Shown here piece after piece: positions 16,513-48,196 of a stretch of DNA of 64,000 nucleotides. Below the pieces are notes generated by a model. That model ran no database searches. It saw only the letters and a program-made list of their open reading frames with translations, and was not told where the DNA came from. This DNA is from Heliocybe sulcata. Its lineage: Eukaryota > Basidiomycota > Agaricomycetes > Gloeophyllales > Gloeophyllaceae. The translations under genes were made by a program, and so were the position numbers. How positions within the stretch are numbered: position 1 is the stretch's first letter; the number at the start of each line of letters is the position of its first letter. The stretch lies in NCBI GenBank assembly GCA_004369045.1, contig ML213520.1, forward strand, positions 186,001 to 250,000. Direction: 5' to 3'.

Positions 16513-18503
16513 CTAGTCGGACGCTCGACGCTCGATCCGACATTTGAATGGCTTCGGATGGCTAGATGCGAGGGTCTTCAGCCGGGCCGTAATGAGCACA
16601 GAAGTCTGACGTACCTCGTTATAGTTGCCGTATATTCAACGACCGGATCAACCTCTCGACCGTGCTCGTCCAGGGCTTTCCGAATATCGAATTGTTGGAG
16701 GATAGCAGAGATATTGAAGAATAGGGTTGTAATGGCAAAATGCTCGCCTAGTGTCGACAGTCCAGTCAGTGATCGAGGGTGCGGACGGGATTTGCCCAGC
16801 CTACCTGGGCAGATACGCCGGCCAAAGCCAAACGCAAATTTGCGCGGGTCGCACTGGCGCTCCTCTGGGTTCTTTGACAAGAACCTGGTGGGGTCAAAGA
16901 CCAGCGGGTCTGGATAAAGGTCTTCGTCGCGTGCAATGGCCCTGCAGGGTATTCAGTCACAGTATCAATGGTATCAAGTATATGACGTTACCAGATATTC
17001 GCAATCACAGTACTGCCCTCGGGGATCCTATAGCCTAGATATTCGTCGTCAGCGGTAACCTTGTGCGGAAGGCCTGCGGGAAATCAGCGTATGCGCGCTA
17101 GATGAGACTATATATGCGCACCAATGGGAGCAACCGGAGAGGAACGGAGTACTTCTTGAACCACGGCGGAAACGTAAGGCAGGGAAGCCTCGTCGCCTGG
17201 ACTAGGCAACTGGTCTCTGCCTAGGACTTCGTCGATCTCAGCCTGCGCGCGCTTCTGGACCTCGGGGTGCAGAGCCATGAGTAGCACGAAACTCGATAGC
17301 GCGGAGACCGTCTAAATAGCTGGAGGTTGCATCAGGACCTTTTGGTAATGAAAAAGGGACATACGGTGTCGGCTCCGCCGGCGTACAGCGCTGCGCTGCA
17401 CCATTTTATGATATCTTCTTCTTGGGAATCGACGGTACGCCCATCCTCCGGTTGTAGGTGCTGAGAAGTGAAAGATTCGATGTACGTCCCAGAATCCTGC
17501 AAATGCAATAAATAATGCTGCAGCGGACAAGAGGACGACATTTACAATTCGCTTTTTTGCCCATTTGTGAGGCACAGACTCCACTTCACTCATACGGCCA
17601 CGATATCGCTCGGCTTCCCTTTTAAAGCGAGCACCAGGGAACCAAGTCGGTACGAAACGCACTGAGAACCGGTGAGTTATATATATATCCGGGCTCGTCA
17701 CGGCGCTTACGCAGTGGAAAAGCGTCAACCAGCCATTTCCCAGGGGCGTTGATCTCTGCCGAAAGCTGGAATGCTTCTTCCATTAGAGACACGAAGTAAT
17801 CGTCGTTTCCTTCGACCGTCCATCCGTATGCAACTTTCAGGATTATCCCCCCTGCATTCCTGACAGTCGTCATGAAGACAAACCGGAGGTACTGAGACTG
17901 ATGGACTTGGACATACCGTCTGAAATGGGCAATAAAGGGCTCGGGATCAGCAGCGAGGTTGTCCAGTAATATCTTTCTTTCATCTTGCATAATGTGAAGA
18001 TAACCTTGCGTAGAGCGCGCATTGAGGCTGCTGTTGAGCAAGCGTCTGTATGTCTTGAATCGCGGATGCTGCGCTGACATGTTGAATATGGCCATCTTTC
18101 GTCCGACCAGTTCGTTCCTCATCGTCGCTGCAGGTCTAGCCGAATAAATACTTGAACGGGCATCAAGGAGATCCGTCGCTGATCGCAGGGTATTCAACAC
18201 GACCGTCTTGCGACCGTATATCCGGAAGCATATGATTGGACTGTCTTCAAAAACGCTCGTCACATCGCAGACTTCAAGAGCACCGATTACAAGCTTACTG
18301 TAAAGCCTGCTCCAAGCGGCGAAGGTTACCCAAGGTTTCTCGCGAGGCAGCTGGTGCAAATTCCCAGATATGAGCCTTGGATTAGGACCTGGAGGAAGGG
18401 GCTGGCGTTTCCGTAGAATCAGATTGTAGGCCAGAAGACTAAGTCCCAGTAAAACAGCACAGAGCACCGATTGCGGTCCCAGAGAACCAAACGCAAAAGC
18501 CAT
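16513..18503 (-). CDS. Cytochrome P450 monooxygenase (CYP64-like class)
   Basis: This is a minus-strand gene of about ten exons. The chosen start at 18503 (MAFAFGSLGPQ) leads straight into a membrane anchor (VLCAVLLGLSLLAYNLI). An upstream in-frame ATG at 18539 is also possible. The Pro-rich hinge is PLPPGPNPRLISGN. The I-helix oxygen-binding motif AGGADT is near 17370, with the ExxR motif in QEVLRSSP near 17140. The heme-binding loop FGFGRRICPG is near 16810, with the Cys ligand present. The last exons join through two short introns to end SHPKPFKCRIERRASD. All junctions can be spliced in frame, so it looks intact. The class resembles agaricomycete P450s labelled O-methylsterigmatocystin oxidoreductase-like; the substrate is unknown. 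Confidence 0.9.
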
Positions 18504-18539
18504 TACAACTATACAAGACCTCTTTGTATCTAAAAACAA

Positions 18540-19863
18540 GCTAGCTTGATTATAGCTGCGACTTGACGCGTTGATCGCTGATGGTGTGAGAGCAACTCGT
18601 TCAGGCAGCTGGAGCAGACACGTATAACCTGTAAGAAACTATAGTGAAAGCATTGGTAAAGGCTGGTCCATTTGCAGCCTAGCATCTCGGGCACCGCGGA
18701 CTCGCTCGCGGTAATCATGTGGGCCCCGGTACCGGTGACCTGACCCCCGGCCTTTGAGCCTTAATTACTCTAGCCGGAGGGGTTTAAGTTTACGGGACGT
18801 GGATCGTGCACCGGCGAGATGTCTCACCTATTATAATTCCGTATTTGATTTGCCCAAGCCAGATATATACCGAGAGCCTCCAGGACACTTAGCCTCAAGC
18901 GATGAACTGTTTTATCGAACCTAAGTGAGAAAGTGCATACTGGCATACGAGTTGACATATCCATATGAGCATGCAGCAAGGTCTCTGGCATGAATTTCTG
19001 GTCTATTTGCTGCTATTTATTCTGTTCAGTGACTGGTATGGTAGTTAGCGCCACAGTACTGTGGCGTCGCAGTCCATTATGCATCATATATTGCTGTCTG
19101 CCTTCACTCGCATGTTTAGTTCTGTAATCCTGCACATAGCTGGGCCATAGGCATGCGCGGGACTGTCTGCATAGCTCGCTGCACCCCATTCTCTGCAATT
19201 ACCGCATTCAGTCCGGCTTCCTCGCAAGCCTTCTTTCGTCCAGTAGTACTATATAAGCGGAGCATACTTGTCTCATCACCGTTCATCAACACTAGAGGGG
19301 TCGTGAACATAGCCACTGCGAGACACTGACTAACTAGAGATGTTTCAATGCTTCTCAGGATGGAAACACGTACATTCATGCACTATGACATGAAGTTAGC
19401 AAGCCCTAAGATATGCGGTTGAGTCTATGTAACCCATTGTCGTCGCAATGAACAGCAGCACAATATGAGAGCCGCAACAGACTTGTCTGCGTGAATGCGC
19501 AGGCGCTTCTCGAGTATAGGAGATGTTCAAAGTTCAAACCGCAATCGGGCGCCAAAGCCGTGCCACAGCTTCCAAATAAGGAGCGGGCGCTTAAAGTCCG
19601 TATCCGGCAATTTCCAGACCATTCTCCTGCCTTCATGATTCCTGTACGCGCACCTCCTCAAGCGCAGTCACTTCTCGAATGTACGAGCTGCGAACGCGCG
19701 TCCCGACACGTACGCTCTCGCTGACTGATGCTATGATTGCTGAGAGCGCTCGGGGGAGTATAAAGACTAAGCATGGGGACCCATACTTTCTGTACAATTT
19801 AATACTCCACCACACTCGCACTCACACTTGACTCTTGACTTGCACTTGAATTCCTATCTGAAT
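18540..19863. other. Intergenic, no gene seen
   Basis: About 1.3 kb lie between the divergent P450 and BAG-domain genes. Open frames on both strands are short and without motifs. A TATA-like GAGTATAAAG lies near 19756-19765, about 100 bases before the BAG gene ATG. Confidence 0.5.
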
Positions 19864-22087
19864 ATGTTCTCGACATACGCTGTACCCGTATTTGATCCTT
19901 TCAACGCCCACCCACACTACCGTCGTCAACCGACCGTGCTGGACGGGATGTATCTCGCTGCCCTGGAGCAGAGGCGCCAACAAGAGGCGTACCACTAAGA
20001 GCTGGCCATACGAAGACGCCTGGAACAAGAGCGCAGAGAAGCCATCCGCCGACGCGCTGAACAGGAGAGAGTCGCGGCTATCCGCCGCCGCATGCAGATC
20101 CAGGCGCTCAGAGAGCAAGAAAGACGCGCTGCCGCGGAGGCTCGGCGTCTTGAACTGATCGAACGGCAAGAACAGGAAGAAGCCGAGGTTGCCCAAGCCA
20201 TGAAGATGATGCTGGGACAGGCGCATCCTCAGAGACAGCAGGTTAGTATCCTTGTCCGAAGTTATCGTCCGAATGACTGGCTGATTCGTTCATTGGAAAA
20301 GGCTCCGAGGCAACACCACCGTTCATACCAGCTGCCGGAAAGGCAGCATGTCCAGCGCTCATATAGCCAAGAAGGACAAGACGACGTCTTCGTAATCTTG
20401 GGGGACCTTTTAAACACGGTGTGTGGAGTACAGCAGCCAGCTACCGCTCCTGCCCCGACTCCTGTCCCCGCACCCGCTCCGAAGGACGTCAAGGGCAAAG
20501 CCAAAGCCAAAGAAGAGCCCGAACACGTCGATCTGGACCGTCAGATCGCACAGCAGCTCCAGGAACGCTACAGCCAGGAAGCCGACGAGGAAGTGTCCAG
20601 CACGATTCGCAACTTGCTGAGCTCGCTGGGCGGCGACGGTGTTGCTGGACCGTCGAAGCCGACGGAAGTATCTTCGAAGCCTAAGGAAGACGTTAAGGCG
20701 GAGGAAGGCAAGTCATTCGAGGACCGCTTGGGCGAGCGTCTTCGAGTCGAGCAGGACACCGAGATTGCCGAGACCTTGAAGAACATCTGGTCCGCGTTCA
20801 CGGGGGAGCACTTGTCCTCAGACAAGCATGTCGACGAGGCCAAAGGCAAAGGCAAGGAGAAAGCGGTAGAGCCTGAAGTCCCGGATGCTTCCGAGCAGAC
20901 CGAGAACGGAGCAGCAAAGATGCTCAGATTCTGGCACTCCCGCCAAGCTCGCGTATCGTCCCTCCGCGCCATTGGCTCTATCCAGTCCTCCCTGCACGCT
21001 CTCGAAAGGTCCTTCGTCCTTCCCGACCACCTGGACTTCCTCCCATCGTCTGACCTGGCGTACTCTTCCACCAACACGCCCGTGCGCGAGTACGAGCACG
21101 CTTTGAACGGTCTCTTGGGCAGGCTTGATGAGGTGGTGAGCGATGGAGACGAGGAGGTCAGAGGGAGACGCAAGAGCGCGGTGCAGGAGGTCGAGAAGGC
21201 GCTGGAGACGTTGAGTGGGATGGTTAGAAGTGTGTGGACGGCTACACATGGTGATGAGGTTGAGGAAACGGTGAGGATTCCTGTGGTCGATGGCCCTATG
21301 GAGAGCCAGGCGGTTCCTGCACAGGACGCGCCTGTCGCTGAAGCTAGCACGGCAGCGGGCGTTTCTCTGGAGCAGGATGCTGCCAACTCTGAGATTGCTG
21401 TGGAGGTCAAGACGTCGGAGTCCGTGGAAGTATGAGGAGCCGCAAGCCGCTGTCCAACTCCCGGAAGAGTCTAAGGCAGAGGACCCTGCTCCTGCGGAAG
21501 GCGACATTCCTTCATCAAAGATCACGGAAGAGGAGACGGTCAACTTCTCCGGCAATGTCGACGTTCTCCAGCACCGTCTTCAGGAGCCGGCTGGCGACGC
21601 CGTGCTGACTGAACAATCATCATCGGATCTACCGGAACAGTCTTCGAAGCCTGAACAACCGGAGGTTGCGTATGCGCTGGAAGTGATGGAAAGCGTCCCC
21701 GAAGTTGACGCATCTTCCGAAGCGGAGGAGCAGCCAGTTGAAGCCTCTGCCGTGTCCGTTATTGAGGAGCATGCTCACGTCGAGACGAAGGTAATAAGAG
21801 AGGACTCGGCGCAGACTGACGGTTCCTTCGACGTAGCTGGAGCAAGTACCGAATACTCCGACCACGCGCCCAAGGAAGACCTGCTCCCGGGCGAAGAGCC
21901 GAGTCAGAGCGAACTGCAGGAGCCTGCTCGTCGAACGGAGGAGGCGCAACCGCAGCTTGAAGACGTCGACACCTTCCTGCTGCCCGCGCACCACGAGGAG
22001 ACGCAGAAGCAGAGGCAGGAATCCGATGTTGAGGATTTGGTGGTGGTGAAGGAAGAGGGCAGTGACTGGTCGGAGGTGGAAGCATGA
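19864..22087 (+). CDS. BAG-domain Hsp70 co-chaperone-like protein, reading frame interrupted
   Basis: From ATG 19864 the frame reads through a Gln/Arg/Glu-rich helical region but meets TAA at 19996 (codon 45). The same frame then continues with convincing coding sequence (RRRLEQERREAIRRR...), and the next in-frame ATG is at 20092. A BAG domain, which binds the Hsp70 ATPase domain and acts as a nucleotide exchange factor, is visible around 20950-21240 (SSLRAIGSIQSSLHALERSF, REYEHALNGLLGRLDEVV, VQEVEKALETLSGMV). The frame stops at 21433-21435. A Glu-rich continuation follows in another frame to 22087, reachable by an intron starting at GTATGA (21430) with acceptors near 21475 or 21517. It may be a functional protein from 20092, a spliced product, or a gene beginning to decay. 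Confidence 0.65.
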
Positions 22088-22479: not shown

Positions 22480-22777
22480 CGGTGTACCATTAATGACCTG
22501 GGACTGGTGATAGGTTCGCAGAGAGAGAGCAAATTACGAACATGGATATGGAGGACTCGGAAGCAGCTGGTGAGGATAGTCCTTCTCTTCTTCTCCCATA
22601 TCTTAGCTGCATCTTTCCAAGGCGTTTGATGATCCCTGCAACAACGGATGAACCTTTGCCGATATCCCTCGTAAGCATTTCGGGTTGCTATTGGGTTGCC
22701 ATGAGGTTAGCGTTCTAAAATCTGCTATTTCGTTACTCCCCGATGCGGCAAGGGTCTTGCCTAATTTGCTTGTTTCG
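22480..22777. repeat. Direct repeat, copy A (about 300 bp)
   Basis: This is the upstream copy of an imperfect direct repeat whose partner starts near 22930. Shared blocks in order include CAGCTGGTGAGGA, TTCTCTTCTTCTCCCA, CTTGCCGAT and TTGCCATGAGGTT, with GCGTTCTAAAATCT and TTTCGTTACTCCCC after them. On the minus strand both copies encode a similar short peptide with GRRREG and SSPAAS, but many differences change the amino acid. I do not call it coding. Confidence 0.8.
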
Positions 22778-22929: not shown

Positions 22930-23266
22930 GGTGTGCCATTGGCCTTGAACTGGTCATAGGTTGGCAGAAAGAGATCAAATCACAAGATGCTGCAGGGTTA
23001 TCCTTTAAAGTTGGATATGTAGGGCATGGATTTCGATGACAGCGGGGACGCAGCTGGTGAGGACATTCCTTCTCTTCTTCTCCCACAGCTTAACTGCACC
23101 TTCCAAGGGCATTTAGTAACCCCTTCAACAGCGGTTGAACCCTTGCCGATGTCCTTTGTAAGCGTTTCGGCTTGCCATTGTGTTGCCATGAGGTTGGCGT
23201 TCTAAAATCTTCCATTTCGTTACTCCCCTATGTGGCAAGGTTCTTGCCTAATTGGCTTGTTTTCAG
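22930..23266. repeat. Direct repeat, copy B (about 335 bp)
   Basis: This is the downstream copy, offset from copy A by about 450 bases. It has a short extra stretch near 22985-23020 and otherwise follows copy A block for block. Identity by eye is about 80 percent in the shared blocks, so the duplication is not very recent. Confidence 0.8.
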
Positions 23267-28686: not shown

Positions 28687-30057
28687 ATGAAAGCAATCCT
28701 GGACATACGGGACCACCGGGACGCGATCGACGGCAACGACGCAGTGCTCTATTTTGGCCGGGATCGTTTGCTTACTACCAGAGGACTGCAGTTTGCGTTA
28801 CGAAAAAATGGTCATAACATCATGGTTCAAATACAATACACAGGTCCACTGGACTCCGAGACTCCAGACATGTCCAGTGCTACATGGGACATGTTGACTG
28901 AGCGGGAGCTCGAAGTCGTTGTTGCGCTCGTACCCCAGATCAAATTCGGTCTCACAAACTGGGTATACATTGTGCGTGTCGAGCACAACCGTTATGAGCT
29001 TATATATAGGCACAGGCCTCCTCCGTCAATCATCAACCAAACATGGGCTCCTTTGGTCGATGCGAATGAGATCGAGGTGCACCGCTGGCTGATGTGGGAT
29101 GAGGGCGAGGGCGTTCATAACGGGAGGGATGTCAGGTTCAGATACGTCTGGTGTGACCATCCGAATGAGATTGAAGACCTCCTCTCGGAATACTATAGCA
29201 ACCGTCGGCTTCAAGACCTGGACCTCACGTTTCCCATTCTTGCTCTCATCACCCTAGAAGATAGGGTCGTCGGCTTTATGCAAGAGCGCTGGCATGGGCG
29301 GGGAATCACATATGATGACAGAGAGCTCATCTATGAGGCGGTCGCCAGGATACAGCGCGCTGGCATCCTCTTCTACCTCATCGAACCTGGTAATATCGTT
29401 ATCGTAGACGACAATAAGGTTCGGTTTGCTGCCCTCGAATGGACAATGCACCAATTCTCCTTAGATGATCCTGAGGAAGTGGAGACACTGGAGCAGGATG
29501 CGGAGATCTACCACTGGACGAGGCTGCGGGAGATTTTCGACGAGATGAGGGAATGGCCCGAAGGTGCCGGAGGCGGTCTTGTTCAGACACGGACAGACAC
29601 ATTCCTCTTCTTCCCACAGGCAATGTACAAGATACCGGACGCGTTCTGGAGTGCGATTGCACAGGGAGTGCCACACAGCTTGTTTGACGAGATGCGCAAA
29701 CTACTCCGAGAGGTCGCCGCGGAGCTAACCATCCAGTCAAAGCAAGCGGCCAAGAAAAAACGGAAGCAGAAGGCTTCGCTCATAGCAAGACCTGTGCCGT
29801 GCGATAGCGACTCCGAGGACCGTCCGCTCGTGGTCTCCGCACGCAGACCCAGCATGCTCGCCGCTCGCGGAGAGAAACTCTCCAGTAAACGAATGTCCGA
29901 GCAGACCAGATACAATTTGTGAGTTTACTGTTAATAATACCCACAACTAATGCTGAAGTCGCCATCAACTAGCTTCAAGTGCGTCGGTCGTGAACAAATG
30001 AATCAGAAGCAGGCTGCGGAAGAAGACTCGAACCGCTTCGAGGAAATTTCAGACTAA
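28687..30057 (+). CDS. Kinase-fold protein lacking catalytic residues (pseudokinase-like), copy 1
   Basis: Two exons, 28687-29918 and 29973-30057, give 438 aa ending EEISD. I do not recognise a named family. The product is clearly paralogous to the gene at 32831: both share VLYFG near the N-terminus, a TNW/Y-x-Y-(I/L)-VR block, WAPxVDxxEI, RW and GR(D/E)V. The C-terminal half matches the kinase C-lobe pattern (RELIYEAVARIQRAGILFYL, then PGNIVI and VRFAAL). Aligned to the kinase catalytic loop, His is Phe and Asp is Leu, Asn is kept, and the DFG Asp is Ala. Phosphotransfer is therefore unlikely. A basic segment (KKKRKQK) could be a nuclear signal. The kinase-fold call is inference from pattern. 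Confidence 0.7.
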
Positions 30058-32830
30058 ACTTGGGAGTGATTTGCGAGATAACTGTTGCGTCTTTTTAAAT
30101 AGATATGTTTCAGCCTTGAACGTTTCTTTTAACTGCCTCGAAGATGTTCCCGGTGTCGTGGGCTGGTGTACTTCCAATGCATTTGGATGCCCAGTTCAAA
30201 TATTCCGAACGTTGTTTTGTTTTCATACCCTCTTCTGCACTATTCCGTTGTAATCTGTAGTATACAGCTGTACTGGTCTGTCTGTGTATTTTGGTTTGCC
30301 TTGCTTGTACGTCGAGCGGGCAATATTATCATTCAATATGCCTGAAGCCTCAGGAGATCTAAGATCTCTGGCAGCCACGTGAGCTACACAGCCTCCACGC
30401 TCCGATCTCGAGCCACGCCGAAAGAAATTCGGACCTATATGGATCCATACCGCTAATATCTTATGCGAGGTACGGTCGCTACTATCCTAAATGCAATACA
30501 GAGAACCACAGTTATGTACCACGGAATTCCTCAGCTACTTCCGCCCCGAGACCATCGACTCTATTGTCTTTGCTTGGAGACGGCGTAAGGCCGGGTGTAT
30601 ATTGGTGGGCTGCGAAAGGGCTCCTGGCAACAAGGGCCCAGTGAAGACGTCAGACGAGCGACGCAACGGCCATCTTTGCATAATAACACTGCCCTCAAGC
30701 AAACGGCAGCATGTTTCTCTATTGAAGTAGAACAAGGGAACCTGCCATCATCCCGGCACGCCGTCCCGACACCCATATATTCGGTAGGAGGCGGTAGGGC
30801 GGGCTTCTGTATTACTTGTCCGCCGTCCCCGACGCCGTGCGCAGGACGGCAAAGTGGAGGCAATACAGACGGAGTGGAAGCTCTCGAGGGTGGCGTCAGC
30901 GGAGGCTCTACGGTTTGTGACCCTCCTTACCCGAGTCCTGGGCCCTGGCTCGTTCGCTCGCCATCTCGTGTGGCGTTCTTGAGTAGTTCGGACGGTTTAA
31001 GGAGAGGAGGCACTGCGAGCCACTAGTAAAGCTGGATGTACGGGGAGCCGTTTTTGCGTAGTTTTCTTCTCTCATTGCGGGAGCACCGGAAATTTGTTGC
31101 TCTCTATTAGTATATACCGCGTTTCTGCAGAAAGAAGACTTCTGCGAATTAATGTATTATAAGGGCACGAATATATATAATAAAATTATAGAAGAACGTG
31201 CAATGGCTACACGGTACTTGTTGGTATGTGAGTGCGACGATTTAGAGAATGGAGAGGTTCGATGAAGTGGTCCGTGCTGAATTGTCCGAATGAATTATAA
31301 TTGCTACAAGGATGCGCTACTATAGGAGTTGATAATGATTAGTAAGACAATTGTGAGGTAGACTACCAGCTATCGGGCATAAGTACTATACTTGGTATAC
31401 CGAAGGCGGAGGGTGGTGTACTCGATTACTTGAGAATAATATTATATGCTCCTAGGGTGAGATGGCGCCGTTGCCACTGCCGCGGCTCGTCATTAGTGCA
31501 TTTGATAGCAGAGGTGGTTTATCGCGTGTCGAATGAGGAGACCTTGGATAGCCTCCCTTCCGGCCTTCGCTTCCAGAGTGAGGCAAAGGGAAGGTATGCT
31601 CCCGGAATGAGAGCCATGCTCAGACCATGTGTAGATTTGGGTATACCCTGCGGTCATAGGCGGGCAGTGGTGTGGCGTCGACTCCTAGTCCGGAGGTCGA
31701 CTTCCAGGACCTCATTACCCCTATATGATGCTCTGGGGAGGAAATCATAATTAAGCGGTTGGTTGGGAGCAGGAGACATTAGGAGTGTTGGATATTGTAT
31801 CTCGACACCTGGAGAGAATAATGAGGAGGTTATTGTCGGTGATATGAAGTCAGATCTACAACGCGCAAAAAATGGTTAGACTAGGCGGCGTAGTGTGGGC
31901 CACGGTATGAGACACTTACGGGTCGTCCATAATGAGTGCTCGCTTTCCTCCACGACAATGGGGACATGGTCCGCGTTCCTCGATCGTGCGGGTGATCTCA
32001 TGGCGAGGACATTCGACGCCCCTCATGGCGTTGGAACACACCCGCTCGAGTCGGACCTCGCTGCCACCATGGCAAAGCCATGCTATCCTAAGATAATAGC
32101 ACATCGTCAGTACAATCTCGACACTCATAGCGGATGAAGACTCACCATTTAAACTGGCCAAGCACCATTCCTACAGGGCGAATGGGCCCGTGTTTGTACA
32201 GGAGTGGACCACAAACATCATAGCAAGCTCGTGGCGCTTGGACCTACAGTATGGCTTGAGTCAGTGGAGGGATTGGTGATCGGGATTGTCCTAACGAGCG
32301 GTCGCGTTGAATTCGTATGGATCGCTCGGGACACCCAGATTCGGGCTGTGGTTTCAGTAGTCCGCCCTTCGCCTCCATAGAGAGAAGTCGCCACCTGTAA
32401 TGATAGCATCCCGGCCAACTGATGCACGTACCATCGTTTTTGAATGACCGACTTATTCTGTAGAGCTGGCTGAAGCTGGCTGGACTGTTAACGAGTACTG
32501 CACCTTTTAAGTTTTTACCTACCCAGATCTAGCGGTCCGTACTCCGAGGGTATCTGCTCAACAGCATAACCAAGAAAATGCTGGGGAATGGTGAGACAAC
32601 TAAAGTTTCTCGAAAGCCTTCACCTGCCTGATAGGACTCTGTTGGAAGCCCACAAACCGACCACCCTGCGCGGTCACGTGCAAGGAAAGAGTAACGCTGC
32701 GGACTTGCCTTTCTTGACGTTTACTTATGGGCGCTTATGGGCGCTGGCTTCGCCGCCCGGGGAGGCAACTACGGCTGTACACGTGTAATCTGATGTCCCA
32801 TTGAGGTTTCTATCCTATGCACCATTACCG
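30058..32830. other. Gene-poor stretch between the two kinase-like genes
   Basis: About 2.8 kb. The part 31080-31440 is AT-rich. Short frames exist, such as 30595-31026 and, on the minus strand, 31916-32161. The latter has spaced Cys and His (GVECPRHEITRTIEERGPCP), a possible small zinc-binding fragment. None can be supported as a gene from sequence alone. Confidence 0.45.
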
Positions 32831-34096
32831 ATGGATGCGCCCACAAAACCATCGCCTCTCGATGTACTTTATTTCGGGGTCTGGAACGACGAAGACGGGC
32901 CTGCTCATGTATTCCGCTGCAACCAGTATGCCTTGATCATCCAGACGAGGTCGTTTTTTGGCGACCTGACCGACAACCCGACCCTGAGGTCGGAGTACAG
33001 GGACAATACCGCTTTCGACGTCGAGATCATTCAAACGATGCTCGGCAACATAGAATGGGGCCGCACCAATTACGCCTATCTCGTCCGGGAGAGCAGCGGC
33101 AGCTATCGGCTTATGTACAGGAACAAGATCCCTAGGACGATTACTTGCCATCTCTGGGCGCCGCAGGTTGATGAACGGGAGATCAACATCACTCGCTGGC
33201 TAGACCCCAAGATGTACCGGGAAGGTATATGGCGGGGTCGGGAAGTGAGCCTCACGATCATGGATTCCTGTGATCCTCGAGCGGCTAAGGAGATTGGAAA
33301 CGAGATCAATGGCGCCCGGATCCTTACCGCCCTAGGATACTCATTCGAGGTCTTGGGCATCGTTATGCGCAACGGCGCAGTGGTGGGCATCATGACGGAG
33401 CTCGTTACAGGACGAGTCGTAGAGTATCCTGATCGCGAGGCGGTATACGATGCAGTAGCCAATCTGCAGAAGCACGGCGTCATCTATCGCGGTATCAGCA
33501 AGATTAGCATTATTATGACGGATAAGGGGGTTCGCTTCGCACAACCCTCTACGGCCATCTCATTACCCGAGGATCAGATCGAGGAAATAGAGTGGTTGGC
33601 GGAGGTCTGGCACTGGAGCAAGCTGAAGGAGTTATTCGATGAACTCAAGCAAGCCCGTAATCCCATGGTTCTCCCCAGGCTCTTCATACCGTACTCCATC
33701 GTGATCCCTCGGCTCCCTTCCCTTTTCCGCGAACTCGTCCTCGATCCGGAGATCATAGCCATAGCCTCGATGGAGTACAGGTTCAAGAAGCGGCTAGATC
33801 CTTCGCGATACGCCCAGCGGCAGTGGAGCGTCGCTTTGCGAATCGCTATGAAGGAAGCTAGCAATAAGCTGGCGACAGTCTCATGGGAGACCGAGACCAT
33901 GTCCCAATACCCTCGATCAGAGTCCTCCTGCACGTTGTCTGAATCCTCAGACAGTATCTATTCCACCCTAGACAAGCCGAGAAGCATACTCCGCGCAGTA
34001 CCGCGCTCGAGAGCTACCCAAGACATAGTCTTCCATCCCTATCACCGGGCGAAGACACGTCCTAGTAGACGTTTACTTGCACCCGATATCGACTAG
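32831..34096 (+). CDS. Kinase-fold protein lacking catalytic residues (pseudokinase-like), copy 2
   Basis: This is a single open frame of 421 aa. The first ATG in frame is at 32831 (MDAPTKPSPLDVLYFG). It is a diverged paralog of the gene at 28687, with colinear blocks RTNYAYLVR, YRLMYRNKIPR, WAPQVDEREI and RGREVSL. The C-lobe-like region (GIMTELVTGR, DREAVYDAVANLQKHGVIYR, VRFAQPS) follows. At the catalytic loop the His, Asp and Asn positions are Tyr, Gly and Ser, and the DFG Asp is Gln, so it is further from an active kinase than copy 1. The C-terminus is Ser- and Arg-rich. Function is unknown. A role as a scaffold or regulator would be a guess. Confidence 0.7.
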   Translation: MDAPTKPSPLDVLYFGVWNDEDGPAHVFRCNQYALIIQTRSFFGDLTDNPTLRSEYRDNTAFDVEIIQTMLGNIEWGRTNYAYLVRESSGSYRLMYRNKIPRTITCHLWAPQVDEREINITRWLDPKMYREGIWRGREVSLTIMDSCDPRAAKEIGNEINGARILTALGYSFEVLGIVMRNGAVVGIMTELVTGRVVEYPDREAVYDAVANLQKHGVIYRGISKISIIMTDKGVRFAQPSTAISLPEDQIEEIEWLAEVWHWSKLKELFDELKQARNPMVLPRLFIPYSIVIPRLPSLFRELVLDPEIIAIASMEYRFKKRLDPSRYAQRQWSVALRIAMKEASNKLATVSWETETMSQYPRSESSCTLSESSDSIYSTLDKPRSILRAVPRSRATQDIVFHPYHRAKTRPSRRLLAPDID

Positions 34097-37000
34097 ACTA
34101 TTTATTGGTGCGTAATATCAATTGCAGTGCTCCAACCAGTTGTTTACACCGCGACGGTCTCCTGCAGTGTCTGCTTCCAATCCGGTATACCAGACGACCC
34201 TGGCCAGGTTTGGGTCCTGAGCTGAGCTCGGACCTTCAGCGACGCCTGTTACAGAACTGGTATGCATATCAAGCACCGATCAGCTCTGTAAGAGTGCGCC
34301 GTCTTGTCCAGATTTGCGTCTCATTCAATACCCTGCCATACCTCGTTACCACACCTTCGGAGTGCTGTCTGTAACTTTTATCCGCCTGCTCTTTCGCTAT
34401 GGATTTGTGCTTGTTGTCCCTTTTCCCCTCATGGTCATGTAGTTGTATTATATTTTCCTTCCGTACCCCTTGTACTTTATAGCAAGCCCGCTATACTTTA
34501 CCATTCTTGTTGGATATCTTTAGGTTCTTTTGCGGTCCTTCTGTGAGTGCTTCTATCCCATTGCTTCCGCTGGATGCGGTGCTGAGGTCGATCTTACGCA
34601 TTACAGTAGGTCGATTTGCAATTAGAGAACTTCTTCTTCTCATAGGACTGCCCGTAAGCTCGGATCCTCCTTGCACTCAATTGCGTCGGTCATTCATGGG
34701 ATTAGTCGCCCTTACTTGTGTCGCAGTGAGTAATCTAGTCTTGCTATCATAAGTTCAGGTGGTAACGACCATGAAGCAGTACTACAGTACTGCCTGCGTC
34801 CGCTGACTCGAAGACGCTCATAGCTGGTTCAGAAGAAACAGCTTCGCTCAAAGAATGGGCGATCCTACCAACGGCCTGCATCTGACACCGCTGCCCTATC
34901 AGTATGACTTTATGAGAGAAGTTGTCACTTATCAATGGTCACACTCTCAGTCTTAAGCTTGAGAATTGACCCGTAGAACTTCCGAGGTCAGGGATACTCG
35001 GAAGGAGAAGCTTCCATTATCCAGCGCCCAAGGACGGTGCAGTCAACGAAGCTGTCTGCTTCGTTTGCGTTTGTGGGTCCCGTGCCCTAGTTTGGTTATG
35101 ATTAGATGGGTGATACGTTGTCGCTTGAACGTCTGAATGGGACACTCACCTCCTCTCTCTGAATAGGCAGGTTTCGCTACTCAGCGTCTGTCGCTCCTTG
35201 CTACCGTCCGTCCCGGAGTACGTCTGACATCATTGCGTACGTGTGTCTTCGAAGCTTCACGGTTGAAGCCGCCAGACCTGCAACACGTCACATGGGACAG
35301 GTAGATGTATCATACTCAAGGGGCGCAACTGCACTCACTGCCTATGTCCTGTGCTCCTCTCTCTCGTGGAGCAGCGTTCGAGGTAGTCCAATGCAGTCAT
35401 CATCTCCGGGCCTTCTGCACCCGCCGTGATCGCGCCAGACCGACCAGCCCACCGACGTCCACCACATAGGCTTACTTTCTACCGGTGGGCGCTGCCTAGA
35501 ATCAGTCCTATATGGCGCTTTCCGGATCGTGGTGGCGCCGCGGGTCGGTGGACTGTCAGAAGGTTTCTGGGCTCCTCACTGCTCTCCTCCTCTCCGTGGC
35601 TGTGTTTGGAAACTCGAAGCCCTTCCATCGTTGTATGAAGAATCATGGATAGTATGCTGTATACTGAGGAATTCTGGGTATCAGTCGGCGGTAAGGGACA
35701 CACTTGGCGATTTCCGTGAGTTAAAACTTATTAAAGCTGTGGAGTGCTAAGATCTACGTCCTGAAATTTATTCAGGTGAATTATATGTTGAAGTTACGAT
35801 ATTCTGCACTTTCAGCGTACATTAATACGCACATTCATTCCGAAGCAAGATAGGCCTGTCAACGCTGCAGGCAAGTGAAGCGGATGTAGTCACATGTATG
35901 TAAGTATTAGCAATTGGCAGAAAGCAGTGGTGTAGTCTGAATCTCTGCAAGAACTTCAGCTCTTCCCAGTCATCTTAATCTGAACGCAGGGGAGACATGT
36001 GTGAGTGACGTCACCTAATGGTAACTCGTAACATACCCTATTAGGAAAGTGTACTATTCGACGCGACTGCTGCCAGCCTGCTGGTCATCCGTCAGTCACT
36101 GCTTCGTCTTACTTATTGGAATCCTGACCGACTTGCCAGCCGCCAGAATGCAGTATCCCAAGCTTTCATTGCATGTCGTTCGTGCTATCAATGCTATCCT
36201 GGTCTCGTGTTTTCGTCGCGTCCAATGCTATCTCATGTCTCTGTCGCTCTGTTCTTTCGCTTTCTTATCGCTTCCTGTTGCTCCTCTATCACTATACCAG
36301 GGCGGCGTTTATCGCACCGCAAGCTGGTTTTCGCGGCCGTCCGTTCCAGGTGAACACCCAGCAGCTGTGCTCTGGCTATACCCTCTCTCCTCGACTGGCA
36401 TCGACTATATACCCTACGCGCTGGTCGCTTAATTGAGCTGGACTCTCAAATCGCTTCTATTGGTGGTGCTGGACATACCAACGGACGCTTTCGCCGCCCC
36501 TGAAATTCCATCTCCAGGAGCTGCCCTCCTCAATCAACTCGGCGATCGATTGCTGCTGGCTCTCCGACCCAAAACTCGTGGAACCACTCAGTCGGCCGCA
36601 CCGGCCTCGCTCCCAGTATCAAGATGACCGGCTTCGCTATCCCGGAGATATGCGCTGTCTGTTGTACGCAGCAAGGGTGTTGCTTACCGATGTGTGTTGT
36701 CTTTGATAGAGATACTTCATTTGGTGTATTTACGAGAGAATTGTTCGTACGCTATAGCAATATACTTAGTCTACTTCTACCTGCACCTGAGATATGTGCT
36801 CTACTAGCGTGAGGTCCCCTGTGAGCTTTTGGAGATGTTGGAAAGGCATGACTGTGTCCTTCACTGTGGCGGAGTTAGAGCGGTTCCAGAAGATATCCTC
36901 GTCACCCCGGTAATTGCCGAATAGCTACCATTGGCTGTCTGTCTGAATCAATGACGAGAACTTCACTCGACTGTCAAGGTGGCGAGGCTTCAAGCGCCTT

Positions 37001-37646
37001 GGAATTTGATTCTCTTTCTCAGTGCCTCTCTGGGTCTGCTCTCGGAACTGGCTTGTCTTGCTTCGTTTGCAAGGTCATTGGTCGACAGGAATGGGCCCCT
37101 TAACTAGTTTGAAGCTCCAGATTCCCAGCAGTAGCTCTGAAACTCCGAGTGACACGGTCACGTCCAGCCTAAGCTTCAAACGCGAGTTACCAACAGTTCT
37201 GGTGCTGCGCCCACGATGATTCAGCGTGGAAGGGTGCCGCATTGCGCTCGATGTCGTGAGAGGTGGTTTAAAGATTCACTGCGTATTAGCCATGATTCAG
37301 ACAGATGCGCGCTGCTCTCTGACAACTTGAAGCTCGACCACTAGACTGCAGTACGTCCTCCCTTCGCGGTTTTGATAGCCGACGTGCTGGCTGATTTGGA
37401 AAGCAGAATATCAGAGATCTGGGATACTGAGACAACAGGCTTTCTCTCCGAGGATTGCACTATTTCCGTACTTTCGGAACTCGAGCAGTAAGTCGTCGCC
37501 TAGTAATAGTACAATGCCTTGGCCCTGAATGACATGGTAGTCTCCAGATCTGATTAATTCATCAGGAGGAAGGATTACCGCAGAGTGATCGCGACCCAGC
37601 TCTGTGCCCTCCATCGACGACCACAATTCCTCTATCTTTCCCCAGT
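34097..37646. other. Gene-poor stretch containing one dispersed repeat
   Basis: About 3.5 kb without a supported gene. Apart from the repeat at 36110-36510, it has only short frames on both strands and no recognised motif. Composition changes along it (AT-rich near 34400-34650), as in decayed accessory DNA. Confidence 0.5.
36110..36510 (+). repeat. Dispersed repeat, copy 1
   Basis: This copy of about 400 bp matches the reverse complement of 42115-42520. A run of more than 45 identical bases starts with CCAAGCTTTCATTGCATGTC. Later blocks, such as CCGTTCCAGGTGAACACCCA, CTGTGCTCTGGCTATACCCT and GACTATATACCCTA, are also shared. The frames inside it that look like Ser/Leu/Tyr-rich proteins are most likely repeat sequence. 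The family is not known to me. A solo end-repeat of a larger element or a small non-autonomous element are both possible. Confidence 0.8.
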
Positions 37647-38750
37647 ATGGCAGATTTACTTCCCGTGGAACTGGTTTCAAAAATATTCCTCCTCTCGCTG
37701 GATAGTGAGAGGTCCGTGACATCGGGTACTCCCGCTGCCCCATGGAATGCGGCCCAAGTTTGTCAATATTGGAGGAGCGTGGCTCTAGCGATGCCAGAAC
37801 TCTGGACATCCCTCTCACTGGACGTGGAGCCCGGATGTCACGGCTACCCCAAGCTGATTGCAGCATCGCTGGCCCGAGCTCAAGGACGTGACTTGTCGGT
37901 TACCCTATCATTTTCGGATGGCTGCGACACCGCGGCGTGCCTCGTATCGCTGCACGCTTATTCCGCGAATCTAAAGCAGCTCCGGATATTTGCGTCCGAC
38001 GACTGCATCCACCTCCTGAGCCTGGAAGGTTTATGCGCTCTTCAGACGCTGGACTTGACCCTCAGATGCACCGATACCATCTGGAGGGGCCTCCTGCTTA
38101 ACCCGTGGCACTCTATCACCCTCCCCACTCTGGAGCACCTCAGAGTCCGGTACGACGGGTGCTGCCGTCTCTTCCACAGTATCACCCTGCCGAAGCTTCA
38201 GTCACTGAACATCGGTAGATACGGAGACAGGAGCATACCCTTCCCGACCTCTTATAAGCCGCTCGCATCCTCGATTGCGCGGTCGGGCTGCAGTCTCCGG
38301 AGGCTTGTCATCGAGAGAATGCCCCTCGACCTCCGGGATCTGGTCGAGTGTATGAAGAGATCACCGAGTCTCACCGAGCTGTCCGTGGGAGCGGATGAGA
38401 AGGAGGACACCCAGCTTACCACCGCCGCTCTCAGATTCCTGCTCTGGGACGCCCGTGTGGTTCGCTCCGGGCGCGCTGTCCTCCCGAATTTGCGCTCTCT
38501 TACTATAATGCTCCAAGAATATGCGAAGCCTCAGGATGTAAACGATTTGCTCCGTTCACGCCTCAGTGAGGAATCGCTGGGTGCTCATCCGGCCTTAACG
38601 AAGTTACTAGACGTGAACATTACCAGGAGGATGAGCGGCGAATGGTCTGGCGCCAAGATGGAGAAATGGAGACTGTGCGACGGCACAGTCTTCAAGACGA
38701 TATACGGAGATGACAGTCAGATGTTGCACGCCGAGACTCTGGTATTCTGA
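37647..38750 (+). CDS. F-box protein with leucine-rich repeats
   Basis: This is a single open frame of 367 aa. The N-terminus (LLPVELVSKIFLLSLD, then AAQVCQYWRSVALAMPELW) is the F-box style common in mushroom genomes, where the motif is LPxElLxxIF...vCrxWrxiAlxxPxLW. F-box proteins bind Skp1 and bring substrates to SCF ubiquitin ligases. The remaining protein carries irregular Leu-rich repeats (LQTLDLTLR, LEHLRVRYD, LQSLNIGRY, LRRLVIERM, LRSLTIML), likely the substrate-binding part. The target is unknown. It lies in the accessory zone and appears intact, without introns. Confidence 0.85.
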   Translation: MADLLPVELVSKIFLLSLDSERSVTSGTPAAPWNAAQVCQYWRSVALAMPELWTSLSLDVEPGCHGYPKLIAASLARAQGRDLSVTLSFSDGCDTAACLVSLHAYSANLKQLRIFASDDCIHLLSLEGLCALQTLDLTLRCTDTIWRGLLLNPWHSITLPTLEHLRVRYDGCCRLFHSITLPKLQSLNIGRYGDRSIPFPTSYKPLASSIARSGCSLRRLVIERMPLDLRDLVECMKRSPSLTELSVGADEKEDTQLTTAALRFLLWDARVVRSGRAVLPNLRSLTIMLQEYAKPQDVNDLLRSRLSEESLGAHPALTKLLDVNITRRMSGEWSGAKMEKWRLCDGTVFKTIYGDDSQMLHAETLVF

Positions 38751-41297: not shown

Positions 41298-44022
41298 CAG
41301 CTGCGTCCTGTACGCTCTGGACCTCTGCGCAGCGACATACTGTCCTTATTCCAAGCGGCGGCTTCTGGGCGGGGCGCCTCATTCCCGCTGCCCTCCGGAC
41401 TCGCGTGCACGGGCAATCAGTAGATACCGATCGAAACGAAACAAGAAATCCATTTACAGCGGACTGCTAGTAGCATTATGCCGGCTAAGGCTCGCTGTGT
41501 ATCACGGACTGCACTATCATATTAGTATTCAGGATCTTGCCGCGTCCGCCATACCCTCCTCAAATCCCAAACCTAAACCTCAAGTCAAAGTACATCTGAA
41601 CGCGACGATGGCGAGTTTACGGGTAAGCGGATATGGTCATCATAAAGGGCCGAAGCTAGTCGGACGTACCGAGAAAATCAATCAGATTTTAAGGCTCCTG
41701 GCGTCCGCCTCCTGCTTGATATCAACGGGGTTCTGATCATCGTCTCAGTCGGGCAGGAAATGCTCGCTTCACGCAATGCGGAAATGGCTTCTAATGCCCC
41801 TCTGAGACCGGAATATCAACTTATCTCTTTTCAAACTCTTCAAACTGAACACAAGCCAACAAAGGGCATAGCATCCAACGCGCAGCGAAAGTAGACTAAG
41901 ACTTGTATTGTTATAGTATACATGTACTTGAGAAAGCACAGCAAGCGATGGCTAGTCTCGGAGCTACATGAGAATACTGAGCGCAAGGTCAGCGGACGGC
42001 AGACAGGAGCTTTCACTGGATGTGCGCGAGCGGCAATCAATGCCGAGTCGCTGAGGAGCGCAGCTTTTTGAGAACGTCCAGCGTCCGAAGAACTTGTCTA
42101 CGAAGAACTTGTCTAATGCGGAACTGGCCGCGGAGAATCCGTTGGCATGTCCAGCATCTCCAACGAAAGCAAAACTTTAGAGTCCGGCTCGATCAGGCGA
42201 CCGGTGCATAGGGTATATAGTCAATGCCAGGCGAAGAGAGAGGGTATAGCCAGAGCACAGCTGCTGGGTGTTCACCTGGAACGGATGGCCGCGAGAACCA
42301 GCTTGCGGTTAGGGTAGGCGCTGCCCGGGTATAATGACAGCGCAGAAAGTAGAAAGCGATAAGAAAGCGGAAGTACAGAGCGGCAGAGACACCAGAGCCA
42401 GATAGCATTGGACGTGACGAAAACACCAGACCAGGATAGCATTGATAGCACGAACGACATGCAATGAAAGCTTGGAACCCAGATAGCATCGATAGAGCGA
42501 AAAGCAGAGGGCAGATCTCGGAAGAAAAGAGCGGACGGGCGTATGAATGGGTCGAAGCCGGGCCGACCAACGAGTGTCTTGTCAATCAGTGTGACAGAGT
42601 GGCCCAGTAAGGACAGGACGGTCTGGACGGAAGTTCCATCGGCCAAAAAAGCAGAGTTTGAAGATGCAAGGAGTGGATGGGCATTTTGTGTTTCGAGACC
42701 GCCTCGACGAAGGAGCGTGCTTCCAGACAGATGGACCAGTAACGACAGGACGGCCGGCGGTACCATCCTCAATTACTAGTGATCATTATTTACCTATACA
42801 TCCTTAACGGGAAGAACATGCAGATCTTCAGGGCCGTCTGGGACGACGACTACTACGATGATGACGATATCAAGAACATAGGCGCGGTTAGTATAGGTTG
42901 ACGACGACGTACAAAGATTGCGCGGGTGTCATTTGCCGTGCAGACGCCCTTGCGGTCCCTGTGCTCGTAGAGACATTTACTGCCGGGGCAGGGAGCTGTT
43001 TCCCCGGCGATGTACCACCAGCCACAGCGACGCTTGACTCGCCCTGCCAGGCGGGACAGGATTAGTCTCCAGTACTGATACTATATGAGGACGTAACTTA
43101 CTTTCCTTCATCGATTCCGGTGTGACAAGTACTAGGTCAACTTTGACGGAGGGACAGTCACTGGTAGCGGTGAATAAATCCAAACCGTCGAACCGTGAAT
43201 CGAAACTGGCCCACCAGAAAGTGCTGCAAACATGCCTCTTAGGCTGCTAGACTTGCGAAGCAGGCGGCGGGACCAGACAACTTGCCACAAACACGTCTCT
43301 CTAGATCGCACAACCTCTATCTTGCCGGGACGATGATCATAGACGAACCCATAATTGGATACCGACTCAAGACGGGTCCAGGGTACTCTCGTGATGCACC
43401 GGATATGCTTGCGGTCCTGAAGTTATTCTGGCTATCTTATCTGGAAGCAATAGAGGCGTTGCTGTAAGGCTCTTCATTTCGGACTCACTGTTCGTCCAGG
43501 CCGCACTAGGTTGCTATCCTCGTATTTATGGCGTACCGCTTGCCTCTGCTCCGGAGAGCTTATGCCTATTACACTCGCATTGAGTCATCGCGATAGTATG
43601 TCGCATCTTCGCCATAGCATGGATAATGAAGATCTGGCCTCAAGTTCTGCTCCTTGACGCTCTTCGACTTCGGATCCTGTCCTATGATGCGGGAGAGTTC
43701 CGCCCTTGATCTCCGTTTGGTATGCCGCCGCTACGCGGCAGGGCTATGGCTAGTTCATTCAGTAAGGACGAGGTCATGTTGGTACAGGACAGTGAGCGTC
43801 TGACCGCGAAAGGATTTGGGTAGACTGGAAAGGATGAACGGCGTGTTTCAGAGAAACGCCCCTCGGACGGATCATGCATGGCTCGGCAGTTTTCCTGTTT
43901 TGTGCAATTTCATAGGCATTTAAGTACGCCGAGGACCCTTATTCTTACCCCACTACCTACCTTGAGGAGCCTGCTCAAGTCAGTCTTCCTGTCCGAGTAA
44001 CTGACCGACGAGCTATACGACA
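41298..44022. other. Gene-poor stretch containing one dispersed repeat
   Basis: About 2.7 kb. The frame at 41125-41736 overlaps the Nudix gene in another frame and has no family features. Around 43640-43790 two short stretches (LDALRLRILSYDAGEF and LDLRLVCRRYAAGLW) in different frames resemble an F-box helix. This is too little to call a gene. Otherwise only the repeat at 42115-42520 is recognised. Confidence 0.45.
42115..42520 (-). repeat. Dispersed repeat, copy 2 (inverted)
   Basis: This is the reverse-complement partner of the copy at 36110-36510, with about 90 percent identity by eye in the core. Within it the motif CAATGCTATC(C)TGG recurs about three times at 45-60 base spacing. The pair flanks the F-box, small secreted protein and first Nudix genes. 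Confidence 0.8.
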
Positions 44023-46321: not shown

Positions 46322-47880
46322 TCATCGGATTATGCTCTGCTGCTGCATAATATTCTCCTTCTCTTCCTTGGGCGCCGGGCTCCATATCTTCCACAGCTTC
46401 ATGTTCTCCTCCTTCGGGCACACCGTAAAGATCTGCGTACCATCTGGGCTGAGAACGCCCATCGCAATCGGGTTCGCGTGCGACTTGGTGCTGATGAGCC
46501 GGCTATATGACGGATACCGGAAGACAGTGACTGAGTTGGACATGGGCGAAACGACAGGGACCGGTTTGCCACGGGTACTGGTAGCGGGCTGCTTCCACGA
46601 GTAGCCGTGCGTGCTCAGGAGCTCCTTGCAGTGTGGAGACCAGATGAGGGAGGTAACGGAGGTGTCGTAGGCGAGGGTGTGGGAGGGCTCGGGGTGGGGA
46701 ACGGCGGAGCCAGTGAGGGACTTGAAGCTCCAGATTTTGATCATGCCTTCGGGGTAGGTGCTGCCTGTCGCAAGAACATCGGTGTTCCACGGGCACCATG
46801 CAAGAGCCTGGAGAATGGAGATTAATGAGGAGTGGTGGGTGAGAGGTCACTACGCTCACCTTGACAGGTGCGTCATGTTTCATCTTTGCGAGCGGCGTAC
46901 CCTCAAACGTGCCGTGGCCTTTGCGGTAGTCCCACAGGTTGACGTGGCCGTCCTCGTCGCTTGTCGCGAGGTACTTCCAGTCTGTGCTCCATTTGAGCCC
47001 ATGAACCTTTCCAAAGTGGGCGGTGATCCTGCCGACCGGATCGGACGCCCGAGCGTCGTACAGAGTGACGGCCCCGGTGCCCGAGCCAACGGCCACGACA
47101 TGTCCGTTCCAGGCTGCCGCACCGACCCAGCCGGGAGACCACCAGCGACGGATAGGCCGATCCCGTCCGAGGTTCCATAACTCTACAAGCCCAGATGCCG
47201 TACCAGCAGCCAGCGTGTTTTCTTCATGACGGTCGGCCCATTCCACCATATTATACTGTCCATATGGTTGCAAAACAGAGCCAAGTTTCGAAACGACGCG
47301 GGTGTTGAGATCCTGACAGAAGATGTCCTCCTCGCATGCCACCGCCAAGACGTTCTTGTATGACCATGTCAGGGAGTAGGCGAATAGATCTTGGCTGATA
47401 CCAGACCCGTCGAGGGCGAGCACAGCCTGCCGTTGACTGATAAGGTTCGAGACGGCGGAGGTGGCAGGGATTGTGACGGGCGTGTAGGACATCTCTGTGG
47501 GATGGGACTTGAGAGGTCTGAGAGGAGTGGCATCGCGTTCTTTCGGTTTCTTGTCAAAGGACAAAGTATTCTCTCCTTTCAGTCCGAAGAAGTTCACGTA
47601 TCTCTGGGTCCGAGGACTGATGTTGAGAGGTACTGCGACGTCGGGGCGCACCGCTATAAACCGGTCAGACTGTAAGAAGGCATGAGAGACGTCAGTAGAG
47701 CACAGGAACCATGCCACACACCAAGCTTGTCCCTCTCTGCACATTCTCCACGGCACCTCTCTCCTCTTCTGGTAAAGACACCGCCGGAATCCCTGACAGC
47801 CTACGACGTTTAGCAGAGCATTCTGCCGACGGAAGAGGAGAACTATAGCGCGGCCTTTTGGTAGGTGTCTTGAATTCCAT
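46322..47880 (-). CDS. APC/C activator of the Cdc20/Fizzy family (AMA1-like)
   Basis: Three minus-strand exons (47880-47722, 47669-46860, 46807-46322) give 484 aa. Cdc20/Cdh1/Ama1 proteins recruit substrates to the anaphase-promoting complex. The short basic N-tail (MEFKTPTKRPRYS) is followed by a C-box-like DRFIAVRP (consensus DRFIPxR). A seven-bladed WD40 propeller comes next (LTWSYKNVLAVAC, QYNMVEWADRHEE, LWNLGRDRPIRRWWSPG, GKVHGLKWSTDWKYLATSDE). The protein ends in Ile-Arg, the IR tail that docks on the APC/C. The N-terminal region is shorter than in Cdc20 and the C-box Pro is Ala. A divergent, perhaps meiotic (AMA1-type), activator is therefore likely. It shares a 316-bp divergent promoter with the second Nudix gene. 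Confidence 0.82.
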
Positions 47881-48196
47881 CGTTGTCCTCAGCTCCGTTA
47901 CGGATGATTTGCGAGCGCAATGATGGCGAGAGGAAAGCTAGCAGGTAAAGTGCAAGGTAATTAATGCCACAGCAAGTGCGTCGCCGTCAGTGCCAGCCGC
48001 GTTCACATCACATGACTGAATTGGCACGTGAGTCTCGGCTAGAAACATCTACATCCACGCCACTAGCCACAACTTCGTGGGTCCTCCCCAGAGTAACTTT
48101 TTATGCGCTGTCTCGGATATAGGGTCTGACAACCGAACTGCTGGAGACGGATACGCCGCTCGGTAAAGATCTTCCAACCTCGGTGTATGCTACTCC
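47881..48196. promoter_or_regulatory. Divergent promoter between APC/C activator and Nudix copy 2
   Basis: These 316 bases separate two divergent starts. One CACGTG E-box lies at 48025-48030. No TATA element was recognised. Confidence 0.4.

Follow-up and report, generated by a model that had tools for sequence, protein, structure and literature searches.

The window analyzed here is a 64,000-nucleotide stretch of the Heliocybe sulcata genome (GenBank assembly GCA_004369045.1, contig ML213520.1, positions 186,001 to 250,000). On its forward strand it carries two uninterrupted open reading frames (ORFs), encoding related proteins of 411 and 421 aa that we refer to as copy 1 and copy 2 (Table 1). 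The frames run 1233 and 1263 nt without interruption up to their stops; of 500 first-order Markov sequences simulated for each gene, none stayed open in the single frame read for more than 289 codons (copy 1) or 212 codons (copy 2). BLASTP aligns the two proteins with 100 of 309 residues identical (32%, E = 2e-39), which identifies them as paralogs. A previous sequence-only reading of this DNA had described two paralogous genes 2.8 kb apart, each open over more than 1.2 kb, and this description holds, with a measured gap of 2,908 bp. It had also placed the genes in a gene-poor zone, which is plausible: between 26.3 and 37.4 kb of the window, none of the other stop-to-stop ORFs listed (minimum length, 130 aa) is longer than 209 aa, and the Pfam searches in the window covered 10 ORFs chosen among the other genes and the flanks. 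By sequence, both proteins consist of an N-terminal conserved region of ∼100 residues, a short kinase-like domain in which the αC Glu and the hydrophobic, αE and post-DFG pattern are retained, and a basic, Ser-rich tail. Copy 1 residues 301–344 are identical to copy 2 at 9 of 40 aligned positions.

Table 1. Features of the two genes, in window coordinates. L007 is a canonical Pkinase-domain ORF of the same genome.
Feature	Position	Strand	Evidence
Copy 1 gene	28687..29922	+	ORF; paralog at E 2e-39; codon log-odds 0.124
Copy 1 N-terminal conserved region, residues 20–118	28744..29040	+	27/96 identical to copy 2
Copy 1 kinase-like region, residues 119–300	29041..29586	+	64/171 identical to copy 2; pair profile matches kinases
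Copy 1 Arg152 at VAIK Lys position	29140..29142	+	Profile alignments to L007 and PAK6
Copy 1 Glu168 at αC Glu position	29188..29190	+	Profile alignments to L007 and PAK6
Copy 1 catalytic-loop equivalent FYLIEPGN, residues 229–236	29371..29394	+	Profile alignments
Copy 1 DFG equivalent ALE, residues 249–251	29431..29439	+	Profile alignments
Copy 1 conserved post-DFG block (αF-like), residues 260–287	29464..29547	+	14/25 identical to copy 2
Copy 1 C-terminal Lys/Arg/Ser-rich tail, residues 345–411	29719..29919	+	Sequence; 14/60 identical to copy 2
Copy 2 gene	32831..34096	+	ORF; codon log-odds 0.114
Copy 2 N-terminal conserved region, residues 12–107	32864..33151	+	Paralog alignment
Copy 2 kinase-like region, residues 108–290	33152..33700	+	Pair-profile searches; paralog alignment
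Copy 2 Thr142 at VAIK Lys position	33254..33256	+	Profile and paralog alignments
Copy 2 Glu158 at αC Glu position	33302..33304	+	Profile and paralog alignments
Copy 2 catalytic-loop equivalent YRGISKIS, residues 219–226	33485..33508	+	Profile alignments
Copy 2 DFG equivalent QPS, residues 238–240	33542..33550	+	Profile alignments
Copy 2 conserved post-DFG block (αF-like), residues 248–272	33572..33646	+	Paralog alignment
Copy 2 C-terminal Ser/Arg-rich tail, residues 346–421	33866..34093	+	Sequence

Several other features of the window deserve mention. A 217-nt direct repeat lies at 22559–22775 and 23046–23262 (start-to-start distance, 487), the second copy being 85% identical. Downstream of the gene pair, a repeat of ∼330 bp at 36157–36485 has an inverted copy at 42138–42475 (85% identical) and another outside the window at C18:262512–262844 (87% identical); with weaker pieces at C17:274715 and C18:264038, this repeat is nearly confined to the window's contig. 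Among the other ORFs of the window, those at 19999–21432, 37554–38747, 17625–18638, and 46506–47888 match BAG domain, F-box-like, P450, and CDC20/Fizzy WD40 models, respectively. The BAG match is above the cut-off; the other three, including CDC20/Fizzy WD40 at E 1.9e-33, are below the curated cut-offs.

The in-frame codon log-odds of both copies (Table 1) exceed 0.077, the mean of the training set (33 further long ORFs from this genome, taken without curation), and in three intergenic stretches the values in all frames run from −0.026 to 0.030. Over 267 codons, the two copies agree at 0.506, 0.569, and 0.337 of first, second, and third codon positions, where composition by itself would give 0.263, 0.258, and 0.272. 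The NG86 method gives a dN of 0.75 and a saturated dS of 2.65, and the LWL85 and YN00 methods returned no estimate on the saturated codons. Thus, the protein sequence has been kept while the silent sites were nearly randomized. As judged from this comparison of the paralogs, both genes are probably under constraint, in keeping with the earlier proposal that the frames are maintained.

At the level of single sequences, the affinity of these proteins is hard to recognize. Neither whole protein has a Pfam match at E ≤ 10, neither matches the Pkinase_fungal model (PF17667) at the same threshold, and a Pfam search of four subregions gave no kinase family. With the two subregions of copy 2, DUF6712 came up at E 0.22 and 0.08, which does not reach the cut-off of that model. 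In Pfam and NCBIfam together, no model matches either copy convincingly; a YlbF-family match (E 0.082) is taken as chance. Searches of the PDB sequences with each protein alone (E ≤ 10) returned two rows per copy and no kinase. For copy 1 these were Spt5, aligned to the N-terminal region at E 0.011, and an odorant receptor (E 1.6); for copy 2 they were enoyl-CoA hydratase (E 0.13) and plakophilin (E 0.47). We take all four as chance matches. In E-value, the Spt5 row comes close to the best kinase row obtained with the pair profile described below.

Single-copy matches are therefore weak, and it is the profile built from both copies that aligns with the protein kinase superfamily in the correct register. 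When the paired kinase-like halves were searched against all PDB sequences, each of the 11 rows at E ≤ 10 was a protein kinase (six AAK1, two PAK6, one PAK4, and two bacterial effector kinases), these redundant rows representing about three to four families. The best row, PAK6 at E 0.0076, has an alignment that spans β3 to the DFG position. With the full-length pair profile, six of eight rows were kinases (best E, 0.076). Residues 20–118 of copy 1 gave no signal against kinases (score 9.7). An internal duplication of the N-lobe, considered from the strand order of a low-confidence model, scored 11.1, a value reached by 83 of 150 shuffles, and is not supported. In viral and in bacterial/archaeal contigs, which are not fungal collections, 72 and 148 pattern matches were found, none of them confirmed.

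We also compared the pair with the rest of its 31.6-Mb source genome, using six-frame searches that score the best candidates exon by exon and that very diverged relatives could escape. Each whole protein found only copies 1 and 2 at E ≤ 1, as did residues 12–135 of copy 2 at E ≤ 10. No third copy emerged at E ≤ 10 with either kinase-like region; the one extra match, to the copy 1 region, was the catalytic loop of a canonical kinase-like ORF on contig C2 (E 0.4). A degraded third copy within the window was likewise rejected, since the best other match among the tblastn matches listed for copy 1 had an E of 0.3 and was antisense to copy 2. The C2 ORF belongs to a set of seven short canonical kinase-like ORFs, here called cousins, to which a search with the APH model led: six on C23 and one on C2 (C23:311768–350501 and C2:1306120–1306749, including L042, L043, L045, L046, L048, and L050). 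All seven keep HxD, the Asn, and DFD, one of them with HND for HRD, and the two that were scanned gave Pkinase scores of 31.6 and 32.5 against a cut-off of 31.7.

Aligned by hhalign with the seven cousins, the pair scores 29.5 (P 0.0024), its loops falling on their catalytic loop and DFD. None of 300 column shuffles reaches this score (their highest value is 23.0), and with the pair reversed it falls to 12.6. Restricted to the kinase-like region, the comparison gives 31.0 with the cousins, the best value among the groups compared, 26.1 with L007, and 20.6 (z 4.4) with the C-lobes of FunK1 kinases at 8 of 10 loci; in each case none of 200 shuffles does as well. Taken singly, copies 1 and 2 score 25.9 and 20.6 with the cousins, whereas ORFs that lack a kinase motif score up to 19.4 and column-shuffled pairs up to 24.2, so that the match convinces only when both copies are combined in one profile. 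The decoys were 54 ORFs of 250–900 aa from 52 loci (45 of the 54 listed). All 21 that score at least 20 either contain HxD or had been retrieved for matching kinase or APH models, a separation that is one-sided because some kinase-family ORFs scored lower. Against other kinase-like groups, with 60 shuffles each, the pair gave z values of 1.3 (six APH-type ORFs), 2.5 (five clustered APH-type ORFs on C15/C25), 0.6 (L034/L037), 2.8 (L033), and 4.0 (L047). Given the values of 1.3 and 2.5 and the missing Pfam match, affinity to the APH phosphotransferases (PF01636) is not supported.

The genome as a whole yields 149 Pkinase matches at E ≤ 0.001 and 119 Pkinase_fungal matches at E ≤ 1, totals that include many exon pieces and are not gene counts. 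One APH-type ORF (L052, C15:746800–748800) reads HANLHVGN and TNWEG at the places where its neighboring relatives show HxD and DWEG, and thus appears to be a further catalytically degraded member. On contigs C10/C38 and C42/C50, in each case a large and a small contig, the kinase-family matches have equal or near-equal E-values, which suggests haplotig duplicates in the assembly.

Pairwise and profile alignments put F229-Y230-L231 of copy 1 and Y219-R220-G221 of copy 2 at the HRD motif, so that its Asp is replaced by Leu and Gly, and A249-L250-E251 and Q238-P239-S240 at DFG. The Asn of the catalytic loop is kept as N236 in copy 1 and is S226 in copy 2. All these substitutions had been read correctly from the letters in the previous description. 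Two further positions were absent from it: the VAIK Lys is gone from both copies (R152 and T142), and the αC Glu is kept in both (E168 and E158). Neither copy thus has the VAIK Lys, HRD Asp, and DFG Asp that mark an active kinase. A kinase homolog that has lost one or more of the catalytic motifs counts as a pseudokinase, and here all three motifs are lost from both copies. Established kinase chemistry predicts that proteins lacking the Lys and both Asp residues do not bind Mg-ATP productively or transfer phosphate. On this ground we infer that neither copy positions Mg-ATP or transfers phosphate.

Conservation between the copies is unevenly distributed over the kinase-like region. Identity is low at the dead catalytic loop (2/11) and DFG position (1/4), and also at β3 (3/11) and αC (5/20). 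It is higher in the hinge/αE segment (12/26) and the post-DFG stretch (14/25), and it is also high in β7–β8 (6/12), which adjoins the dead loop. Such a pattern is what a domain serving as a binding surface would show, although over such short blocks it is only suggestive.

Structure prediction carries little information in either direction. With only two sequences per run, the AlphaFold models reached pLDDT values of 35.5 and 34.0, too poor to confirm or refute a bilobal kinase fold; their low-confidence order of strands and helices is compatible with a kinase and was given no weight. A Foldseek search with the poor copy 1 model gave no credible match (best E 0.0074, rmsd 21). Among the best 50 of 734 matches, the recognized kinase rows were chains of the kinase SteC, at E 0.18–0.47.

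Taken together, these observations make it likely that the two genes arose by tandem duplication, have since diverged, and form a two-member family of pseudokinases, proteins with the protein kinase fold but without catalytic activity, which may work as protein-binding scaffolds or decoys. Of the earlier pseudokinase proposal, the parts that concern kinase-like paralogs without catalytic residues and their maintained frames are supported, and the structural models are too poor to speak for or against the fold. Each product might act as a protein-binding scaffold or as an allosteric or decoy partner, with the kinase-like domain as its docking surface. The hinge/αE and post-DFG segments, and not the dead catalytic loop, are best kept between the copies. 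This mechanism draws on what is generally known of pseudokinases, and we propose it for each copy only tentatively. That the partner could be an active kinase from the genome's large kinase-like repertoire is a guess.

Other explanations must be weighed against the pseudokinase reading. The two genes might represent a non-kinase family in which a helix and a short strand-loop-strand pattern mimic a C-lobe by chance, as the missing Pfam match, the absence of kinases from the single-protein PDB searches, the weak individual E-values, and the poor structural models would allow. However, chance does not readily account for a pair-profile PDB search that returns only kinases, in correct register in the five alignments listed, nor for three kinase groups of the genome that score above all 200 shuffles; moreover, the PAK6 and L007 alignments take in β3 and αC besides the C-lobe. 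We regard a chance mimic as quite improbable. If kinase homology is granted, the genes could still be relics of a kinase-like family drifting neutrally toward pseudogenes. The loss of all three catalytic motifs, the recovery of only two copies in the genome searches, and the scarcity of other long ORFs nearby would fit such a history. Yet a neutrally drifting frame should have collected about 19 stops (411 × 3/64, an estimate that assumes a third-position identity near saturation, at 0.337), and both frames are open. The agreement at codon positions 1 and 2, far above random, and the codon log-odds above the training mean also speak for maintained genes, and neutral drift appears very improbable.

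Conversely, the proteins might be enzymes after all, kinase-fold proteins that perform an atypical reaction such as nucleotide transfer or that rely on substitute residues elsewhere in the domain. Kinase-fold enzymes with atypical activity are known, both copies keep the αC Glu, and copy 1 keeps the loop Asn. Both Asp residues and the VAIK Lys are nevertheless lost from both copies, with different replacements in each, and a conserved new active site is disfavored because the catalytic loop and DFG position are less alike between the copies than the region overall. An atypical enzyme is accordingly very improbable as well. Within the pseudokinase reading, a more far-reaching version would make the pair part of an unnamed, fungus-specific pseudokinase family without nucleotide binding, equipped with a new N-terminal domain, whose diverged tandem copies dock to or decoy the expanded kinase-like families; this version seems rather unlikely. 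Nothing in the data goes beyond the known concept of a pseudokinase, exemplified here by two proteins that match no Pfam model.

Kinome surveys that rely on motifs and Pfam models easily overlook proteins as degraded as this pair. If orthologs exist, the two genes would offer a clean case for asking what keeps selection acting on a fully dead kinase fold in a fungus rich in kinase-like genes; otherwise they are probably just another pair of orphan genes. The proposal that the proteins form an undescribed family is supported so far only by the lack of a convincing Pfam or NCBIfam model and by the literature on basidiomycete and Agaricomycetes pseudokinases, FunK1, and kinomes: no such family appears among the matches listed, in sources available in part and in a scope that leaves out most subscription journals.

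Fungal kinase-like proteins of several kinds provide points of comparison. Many TKL kinases have been predicted in Laccaria (PMC2838846). In the available parts of the respective articles, a pseudokinase domain is discussed for GCN2 (PMC12394161), and MLKL and fungal HELL domains in kinase and pseudokinase proteins are treated (PMC12881547). The pair resembles PUK1 of Fusarium graminearum in being described as pseudokinase genes of a filamentous fungus, a likeness of description and not of compared sequences. As the accessible part of that study has it, PUK1 plays a role in sexual reproduction and its kinase domain contains two stop codons that RNA editing changes (PMC4817773). The frames of the pair, by contrast, are both open. 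The FunK1 or Pkinase_fungal kinases (PF17667) are likewise fungal, have many matches in this genome, and share a weak C-lobe similarity with the pair (z 4.4), but in the eight FunK1 C-lobes examined, HRD or HGD is accompanied by a D-x-D motif. With the protein kinase domain proper (PF00069, represented by PAK6 and L007), the pair shares the αC Glu and the order and register of β3, αC, αE, catalytic loop, and β7–β8; it differs in lacking the Lys, the HRD Asp, the DFG Asp, any Pfam match, and, by eye, an APE motif, and in possessing the extra N-terminal region. The seven cousins, with open frames of ∼170–210 aa, retain the HxD, Asn, and DFD that set them apart from the pair, and copies 1 and 2 are 28% and 26% identical to them over 57 aligned columns. 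The two groups share a similarly short distance from the DFG position to the aligned Trp or Tyr that follows it: 25 residues in L046, compared with 26 and 22 in the pair.
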